DNA from: Acidobacteriota bacterium
GTDB lineage: Bacteria; Acidobacteriota; Terriglobia; Terriglobales; Acidobacteriaceae
Reading direction: 5' to 3'
Assembly (NCBI GenBank): GCA_021819255.1
Contig: JAKART010000031.1
Location: forward strand, 1-11,491
DNA length: 11,491 nt
Shown: piece by piece, positions 10,224-11,491 of the stretch
How the letters are laid out: each line of letters starts with the position of its first letter
Position numbering within the stretch: the first letter of the stretch is position 1
Position numbers and translations under genes: made by a program
The notes under the pieces: generated by a model
Told to the model about the DNA's origin: nothing
Seen by the model: the letters and a program-made list of their open reading frames with translations, nothing else
The model's database searches: none

Positions 10224-10532
10224 TCAGTTCTTGAGCATGTCCACCTCGTCGACGTTGAGGGTCCGACGCGTCCGGAAAAGTGCGATGATGATGGCCAGTC
10301 CGACTGCGGCTTCCGCAGCGGCCACCACCATCACGAAGAAGACGAAGATCTGGCCCGAGATCTGGCGCCAAACGTGGGCAAAAGCAACAAAGGTGAGATT
10401 CACCGCGTTGAGCATCAGCTCAATGGACATGAAGATGGTGATCACGTTGCGCTTGATGAGAAAGGCGGCGATGCCGATGCAGAAGAGAACAGCCGCCAGG
10501 ATAAGGTAGTAGGCGATGGGTACGGTGATCAT
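10224..10532 (-). CDS. nuoK: NADH-quinone oxidoreductase subunit K
   Basis: This encodes 102 residues, the standard size of NuoK, a three-helix subunit homologous to MrpC that lies between NuoJ and NuoN in the membrane arm. The two membrane glutamates needed for proton transfer are present: E38 in [13 protein letters not shown] and E74 in [11 protein letters not shown]. The start at 10532 is chosen because it gives the typical [11 protein letters not shown]-terminus and has GGGGAG about 12 bases upstream. A longer reading of the same frame runs on upstream but lacks family likeness. The start codon overlaps the stop of the small upstream ORF as ATGA. Confidence 0.96.
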
Positions 10533-10642
10533 GACTCGATTTCTCCCCAGCTTTTGACAATGAGAACGCCGGCCGCACTGCAGCCGACCAAAAGCATCCA
10601 GGCCGTGGTGAGCACCGCAAAGCCGCCACAAGGAATGGTCAT
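10529..10642 (-). CDS. Small single-span membrane protein of unknown function between nuoJ and nuoK
   Basis: This is a 37-codon ORF, too short for usual gene calling and of no family I recognise. Three sequence facts support translation. AAAGGAG lies 8 bases before its ATG, inside the last codons of nuoJ. The ATG begins 2 bases after the nuoJ stop. Its TGA overlaps the nuoK start as ATGA, the same kind of junction used in the rest of the operon. The product begins MTIPCGGF, has one hydrophobic segment at about residues 7-29 (including [16 protein letters not shown]), then Lys30 and an acidic end (GEIES). LVGC at 18-21 resembles a lipobox, but no basic residue precedes it, so a plain membrane span is likelier. 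By context it could be an accessory complex I subunit or a coupling peptide that sets nuoK translation. A chance ORF remains possible. Confidence 0.6.
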
Positions 10643-10644
10643 GC

Positions 10645-11151
10645 TTAGAGCTCCTTTCGCGCCAGCACCACCGCTCCCAGAATGGCGATGAGGATGAGAA
10701 TGGAGGTGACTTCAAAGGGAAGCAGCAGCGTGGTGAACAGAGTGTGGGATATCTCGCCGATATTGGAGACGGCGCCGGAGAGATATCCTCCCAGCCCTGT
10801 TGAGCCAAGCCGGCTACGCTCCGAGAGGAAGACGAAACTGAGCAGGCAGAAGATGGCGGCTGCGCCGGGGATGCCCGCGATGTAAGCGATCTTCGAGCCA
10901 TGCGTCTCCTCTTCCTCACCTGCGTTCAGCAGCATGACGACGAAGATGAAGAGAACCATGATGGCGCCCGCGTAGACGATCACCTGGGCTGCGGCAAGAA
11001 ACTCCGCACCCAGTGACCAGTAGAGGACCGCCAGCGACATCATGACGACTACCAGGGAGAGCGCGGAGTTGATGGGATGGCGCTGGAAGAGCAGATTCAG
11101 GGCTCCTGCTACCGCCAATAGACCGAAGAGGATGAAGAGTACGAGTTCCAT
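10645..11151 (-). CDS. nuoJ: NADH-quinone oxidoreductase subunit J
   Basis: This encodes 168 residues with five predicted membrane helices, as expected for NuoJ (ND6 homologue), which links the quinone-site end of the membrane arm to the proton channels. The best-conserved part is helix 3 at 59-76 ([18 protein letters not shown]), the segment known for its pi-bulge rearrangement in complex I structures. An acidic loop (EEEE, 79-82) follows it. The C-terminus reads [13 protein letters not shown], and the codons for that last KEL hold the Shine-Dalgarno sequence of the next small ORF. The start at 11151 gives the usual [11 protein letters not shown]-terminus; the ribosome-binding match before it is weak. 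Confidence 0.96.
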
Positions 11152-11247
11152 CGGGGCTATCGATTCCAGAGAGTTCGTGTGCCGCGGGTTGCTGAATCGT
11201 GATTTTCACATGGAGCGCAGGGAGGAATCCGTGATCTCCATAACCGA

Positions 11248-11491
11248 TTAACCGTGGTACGCCAGGGCCAGCGCCGTAGCCAGGATGTTGACCATGGCCA
11301 CGGGCAGAAGAAACTTCCAGCCAAATCCCATGAGCTGGTCATAACGAAAGCGGGGAAGGGTGCCGCGCACCCAGATGTAAAGCAGAAGGAAAGCAAAGAC
11401 CTTGGCCACGAACCAGAAGATGGAGATCAGTCCGGAGACGATGGCGCCTGAGGCGATAGGGTCAAAGAGATGGCCGAAAGGGCTGGAGGCG
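11248..11491 (-). CDS. nuoH: NADH-quinone oxidoreductase subunit H, C-terminal part (runs off the window)
   Basis: The last 80 or so residues of NuoH are present, ending at the TAA at 11248-11250. The NuoH-typical [20 protein letters not shown] segment, followed by [15 protein letters not shown], leaves no doubt about the family. NuoH (ND1 homologue) anchors the peripheral arm and forms part of the quinone chamber. Its N-terminal part lies beyond 11491. The next gene is nuoJ, 96 bp downstream, with no nuoI between them. Confidence 0.95.

Follow-up and report, generated by a model that had tools for sequence, protein, structure and literature searches.

The small open reading frame (ORF) that separates nuoJ from nuoK in an Acidobacteriaceae genome is, as judged from sequence comparison, a real gene. 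Its presence among relatives is patchy, with repeated gain or loss and very fast divergence. There is about an even chance that it encodes a single-span microprotein serving as an optional accessory or assembly helix in the membrane arm of complex I, which in bacteria is usually regarded as a fixed set of 14 subunits.

Position and anatomy of the small ORF

The window, i.e. the whole stretch of 11,491 nucleotides analysed, comes from an assembly that is 67% complete and divided among 465 contigs. The named relatives closest to it by NuoJ are Granulicella or unclassified Acidobacteria. The gene order on its minus strand is nuoH (end), nuoJ, small ORF, nuoK, nuoL, nuoM and nuoN, of which nuoH, nuoJ and nuoK were named through Pfam and nuoL, nuoM and nuoN through their reading frames and place. 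The features of the junction are collected in Table 1.

Table 1. Features at the nuoJ-nuoK junction of the window
Feature	Position	Strand	Evidence
nuoJ	10645..11151	-	Pfam PF00499, E 1.4e-37
Shine-Dalgarno-like AAGGAG of the small ORF, within the last nuoJ codons	10651..10656	-	
Small ORF, 37 codons and stop, predicted single-span membrane microprotein	10529..10642	-	
Hydrophobic stretch, about residues 8-29 of the small ORF	10556..10621	-	hydropathy and predicted helix
Tail codons 30-37 of the small ORF, frame-shifted relative to relatives	10532..10555	-	
Weaker Shine-Dalgarno-like GGAG of nuoK, within the small ORF	10543..10546	-	
ATGA overlap of small-ORF stop and nuoK start	10529..10532	-	
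nuoK	10224..10532	-	Pfam PF00420, E 2.1e-29

The layout reported in the preliminary description was confirmed in full: a 37-codon ORF occupies the nuoJ-nuoK gap, its ATG lies 8 nt downstream of AAAGGAG and 2 bases past the nuoJ stop (10645-10647), and its TGA and the nuoK ATG share an ATGA. The product had also been described as one hydrophobic span with a short charged tail. The span holds, with one predicted helix (residues 5-36 of the AlphaFold model, mean pLDDT 84.1) and a best 17-residue hydropathy of 2.06 starting at residue 13, compared with 0.94 in shuffles (p 0.023). In other species, some longer ORFs may span the membrane more than once. The charged tail of the window copy, KSWGEIES with a net charge of -1, proved atypical. 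The five relatives with an ORF of this type end in VKKLGRP, IKKLGRP, VKKLGRH (two copies) or VHKLRRP, each with a net charge of +3, whereas the window copy ends in VKSWGEIES and differs by compensating one-base indels within the last 30 bases. It is the sole net-negative tail among 27 rows, the other 26 being positive (six types found later are not counted). The shifted tail may be real or may be an assembly error. Substitutions or indels that ignore the reading frame, which the preliminary description took as grounds for rejecting the ORF, occur in the tail of the window copy only.

According to the positive-inside rule, the positive flank of a membrane span stays inside. The net-positive tails therefore suggest that the C-terminus is inside, and the N-terminus is probably outside. 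In the window type, 12 of the 14 invariant residues are located within the first 15; as some of the invariant codons share the third base too, part of this conservation may reflect selection on the start region. Histidine is found at 24 of 297 positions among residues 2-10 versus 15 of 1010 elsewhere, and in 13 of 33 proteins (33 types, kinship uncorrected). These N-terminal histidines would lie on the outer side, and a role involving metal or pH is a guess.

Occurrence at the nuoJ-nuoK junction and translation coupling

Junctions were gathered from three sources: NuoK matches in 61 relatives; 80 of the 236 NuoJ-encoding loci from named genomes; and 80 short stretches picked, with nearer relatives favoured, from the listed NuoJ matches in 398 genomes of the family, 355 of which contain a NuoJ match. 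L062 (no NuoJ match), L069 (unusable stretch) and L166 (no NuoK) are omitted. Removal of duplicates left 131 distinct junctions counted as Acidobacteriaceae, the loci from named genomes being assigned to the family by NuoJ identity together with the record titles, although a few titles name other groups. The gap is shorter than 50 nt in 98 of these junctions and wider in 33. A single ORF spans the wide gap from nuoJ stop to nuoK start in 32 of the 33 cases, a fitting ORF being defined as one that starts no more than 5 nt from the nuoJ stop and ends between 20 nt before and 8 nt after the first matched nuoK codon. Each of the 32 reaches a 17-residue hydropathy maximum of 1.6 or more. The 33rd wide gap (L131, 268 nt) holds tandem overlapping ORFs of 36 and 50 codons, the second being hydrophobic with a basic tail. 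Gaps without a conserved ORF in related genomes, which the preliminary description also took as grounds for rejection, are found in part: 98 of the 131 family gaps are too narrow for one. The recurrence of fitting ORFs at the junction supports a lineage-specific coding ORF.

Outside the family or in a second nuo operon, wide gaps occur in 8 of 34 distinct junctions (L065 is a truncated-match artefact), with three fitting ORFs, none of them hydrophobic. In L038, L039 and L058, all from outside the family, ORFs of 26-27 codons bridge nuoJ and nuoK via overlaps and are possibly pure relay ORFs. A second nuo operon of genome G007 (L179:4108-15904, minus strand) runs through B, C, D, an iron-sulphur protein and H to L, which stands in a row with three more antiporter-like subunits, as in the so-called 2M type of complex I; its nuoJ and nuoK are close together without a small ORF.

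Many gapless relatives have the AAGGAG of the final nuoJ codons directly ahead of nuoK. Where the small ORF is present it uses this AAGGAG, with a six-base match in 23 of 27 ORF-bearing rows, and the nuoK site is weaker and located inside the tail codons of the ORF, with 4-5 bases in 22 of the 27. Among the 66 ORF-less rows, the nuoK site has 6 bases in 33, 5 in 20 and 7 in 4. This arrangement underlies the main rival to the accessory helix, namely a translational relay: where two genes are coupled, an insert between them would survive only as an ORF that passes ribosomes on to nuoK, and the peptide would matter little beyond being harmless or holding the ribosome at the membrane. The tight abutment on both genes in 32 of the 33 wide family gaps, the capture of the stronger site by the ORF and the fitting ORFs without a hydrophobic span in L038, L039 and L058 all agree with a relay. 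A leader-like peptide that sets nuoK translation had likewise been suggested in the preliminary description, and the layout fits it. Neither a relay nor a leader alone explains why amino acids are conserved, mostly at the outer end, or why the product is hydrophobic in 32 of 32 single fitting family ORFs. The relay is considered rather unlikely as the explanation; it may also be an additional role of this gene.

Distribution, coding selection and chance

A tree of nuoJ and nuoK with 93 rows places all 27 ORF-bearing rows inside one clade of 72 rows, with titles naming Granulicella, Edaphobacter and Terriglobus. ORF presence requires 16 changes on this tree, 8 of them forced by well-supported branches, and 15 when L018 is left out, a row that is mis-framed and whose long branch is an artefact. 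Six further types, found later, stand outside the tree. The ORF is present in Granulicella mallensis X5P3 (G022, L106) and absent from G002, though 497 of 510 nuoJ bases are identical; the absence in G002 is clean, with AAGGAG retained ahead of nuoK. This close pair makes the effect of the ORF directly testable.

Profiles built from more than one type detect others. The window type combined with L016 matches L220, L126, L026 and L233 (E 0.0007, 0.009, 0.012 and 0.096, respectively), and these four outrank all 1591 decoys, the best of which reaches 0.34. The Edaphobacter type combined with L220 and L233 matches L016 at 2.7e-5 (best decoy 0.099), and L220 with L233 matches L016, L126 and L131 at 0.0006-0.0035 (best decoy 0.012). 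Neither the window type alone nor the three-row Edaphobacter type alone gives a profile that exceeds decoys. The matches link some Granulicella and Edaphobacter copies and suggest a probable common ancestor for several types, with divergence nearly past recognition. As a possible source of the ORF, a duplication of the first NuoK helix or of the NuoJ end was considered. Protein scores are higher than in residue shuffles for the NuoK start (combined p 0.0036) and the NuoJ end (3.6e-9), and likewise for control stretches (0.0097 for the rest of NuoK). At the DNA level, p falls under 0.05 for the nuoK start in 4 of 27 rows and for the nuoJ end in 6 of 27.

Among the 398 family genomes, the window-type profile gives E below 1e-15 only at the nuoJ-nuoK junction, in seven genomes, and weak matches (E 0.003-0.01) at six other places; the Edaphobacter profile has matches in two genomes, and neither the Granulicella nor the Edaphobacter profile has a strong match off the junction. 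This strong attachment to one position counts against a small membrane protein that has a role of its own, as a regulator or in the envelope or stress response, and uses the nuo operon for expression only. Such a protein would account for the repeated loss of the ORF from operons that retain their complex I genes, for fast divergence and for the lack of detected kin among known families; on balance it is an improbable alternative, behind the relay.

Copies of the same type as that of the window are found at the same junction in five relatives (G001, G003, G004, G008 and G023). Selection was estimated over the first 29 codons of the window copy and these five Granulicella-type copies (15 pairs, pooled Nei-Gojobori). 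Pooled dN/dS is 0.217 in frame versus 1.46 and 1.74 in the other two frames, and the observed pN/pS of 0.31 compares with a shuffled mean of 0.99, none of 2000 column shuffles being as low. The frame-specific purifying selection supports a lineage-specific coding ORF; dN/dS had been proposed as a check in the preliminary description. Pairwise pS of the small ORF (0.29-0.72) is similar to dS of nuoJ and nuoK, and its pooled pN (0.145) amounts to roughly four times the nuoJ mean dN. In the Edaphobacter type (L114, L126 and L158), whose copies are separated by a whole-codon difference, pN/pS is 0.23-0.33 versus 1.2-2.3 in the other frames, and in the pair L012/L019 it is 0.42 versus 1.01 and 1.87. 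The signal is weak in L148/L153 (0.64 versus 0.71 and 1.46), and no signal is seen in pN/pS of L007/L016 (0.90) and L025/L026 (0.86), as is expected under saturation or relaxed selection. The selection signal is weaker as divergence grows.

On average, 4.4% of trials with dinucleotide-shuffled gaps yield a fitting ORF, so that 1.15 of 26 rows (L131 excluded) would be expected to have one, versus 26 of 26 observed. All 27 small ORFs are more hydrophobic than their own open-frame shuffles (largest p 0.037), the combined p of this test being no true probability because the rows are related. Neighbouring junctions served as further controls, with some loci repeated among the rows. Between nuoH and nuoJ, gaps of at least 80 nt occur in 57 of 82 rows and none is flagged with a hydrophobic ORF. 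Between nuoK and nuoL, such gaps occur in 11 of 84 rows, and five rows representing three distinct loci are flagged; the controls therefore separate the junctions clearly, not perfectly. The nuoK-nuoL ORF of L106/L182 (one genome) fits both ends with a hydropathy of 2.0. The hydrophobic ORFs of L100/L177, L106/L182 and L131 have a common FPxG-like piece, which suggests a common intergenic repeat. A chance ORF in a non-coding spacer or intergenic insert, for which the frame-ignoring tail indels of the window copy, the pairs lacking a selection signal and the nuoK-nuoL inserts that read hydrophobic by chance could be cited, is very improbable in view of the frame-specific selection, the excess of fitting ORFs over shuffled gaps and the junction census, and in the window's type the in-frame dN/dS already makes it unlikely.

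Possible function and comparison with known systems

The accessory helix is favoured because of the place of the ORF, its coupling, its coding selection and the analogy with NdhP, CydX and subunit IIa described below. The nuoH-nuoJ control gaps, none of them flagged with a hydrophobic ORF, the positive tails and the junction-limited Granulicella profile also count for it. An accessory subunit of the membrane arm had likewise been suggested in the preliminary description. Counted against it are its absence in most relatives, the fading selection, the acidic shifted tail of the window copy and the hydrophobic nuoK-nuoL ORF of L106, together with the finding that, among those listed of 271 column-residue tests, no NuoJ or NuoK residue tracks ORF presence significantly in independent pairs. 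Under the accessory-helix reading, the microprotein would be translated from the nuo mRNA together with NuoJ and NuoK, coupled translation supplying it in proportion to its partners, and would insert next to the newly made NuoJ/NuoK pair. The optional helix could then help the membrane arm to assemble or keep it stable, a part played in other respiratory complexes by small one-helix proteins.

A more far-reaching version, which is put forward tentatively and is less probable than the accessory helix as such, holds that Acidobacteriaceae complex I carries a hypervariable optional membrane subunit at NuoJ/NuoK that has been repeatedly gained, replaced or lost, as a part under local selection would be. 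Such a subunit would evolve several times faster than its neighbours while keeping mainly its topology and place, often with an outer His or Cys; it might, for example, shield or tune the membrane arm against shifts in lipids, pH or respiratory inhibitors in soil. If true, a nuo microprotein that is selected, optional and hypervariable would show the beginnings of accessory subunits before they become indispensable, as in mitochondria.

Another candidate accessory gene of the operon was encountered in L177 (4284-4598, plus strand). It lies between nuoD and nuoE, and its 105-aa product matches no Pfam or NCBIfam family above cut-off; relatives with 65-69% identity are found in L178, L181 and L182 (three other Granulicella-type genomes). 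In L177 and in the window (10645-11490), nuoJ follows nuoH directly with no nuoI in between; nuoA, nuoB and nuoI were not seen among the scanned ORFs.

Neither Pfam nor NCBIfam gave a match for the window ORF. Ten ORFs compared with NCBIfam and ten with Pfam gave nothing above cut-off, other types matching only weakly below it, and the best hit of a profile search against PDB has an E of 0.6. In protein-database searches, the 44-aa ORF of another species has seven matches including itself, designated hypothetical protein where named, and an 85-aa ORF matches itself only. Small size and divergence put the ORF among the genes that can escape annotation. No account of a small nuoJ-nuoK protein was found in the open-licence literature searched, which omits most subscription papers. 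The Paracoccus nqo operon holds unidentified reading frames; in the main text of a Paracoccus paper, neither 'urf' nor 'reading frame' occurs.

Several small or additional subunits of respiratory complexes invite comparison. Complex I of Paracoccus and Mycobacterium has extra proteins beyond the 14 core subunits (PMC11522691, PMC12361115). Named examples (NDUFS4, NDUFS6, NDUFA12, PIMT and A9) are either homologous to mitochondrial subunits or enzyme-like and, unlike the window ORF, are not single-span nuoJ-nuoK peptides. CydX of cytochrome bd oxidase has 37 residues and is easily overlooked by annotation (PMC4325964); the window ORF has the same length, but the complex differs and CydX kinship finds no support in Pfam or NCBIfam matches. 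Subunit IIa of B-type cytochrome oxidases, with 41 residues and one helix, was missed in the genome and found in the purified enzyme (PMC3128077). It is likewise small and one-helical, but its enzyme differs and no kinship with the window ORF was detected. Further parallels are NdhP and NdhQ of cyanobacterial NDH-1, single-span peptides of less than 5 kDa; NdhP was shown biochemically to reside in the membrane arm, at the distal NdhD1/F1 unit, and to be essential for NDH-1L (PMC4131877). Like these peptides of a complex I relative, the window ORF product is a small, predicted single-span peptide; unlike them, the window type is missing in most relatives and has no family match found. With one predicted helix, a short length and a place among the nuo genes, the window ORF shares traits with the small respiratory subunits. 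While belonging to no named family, it would by analogy resemble these one-helix subunits in its working.
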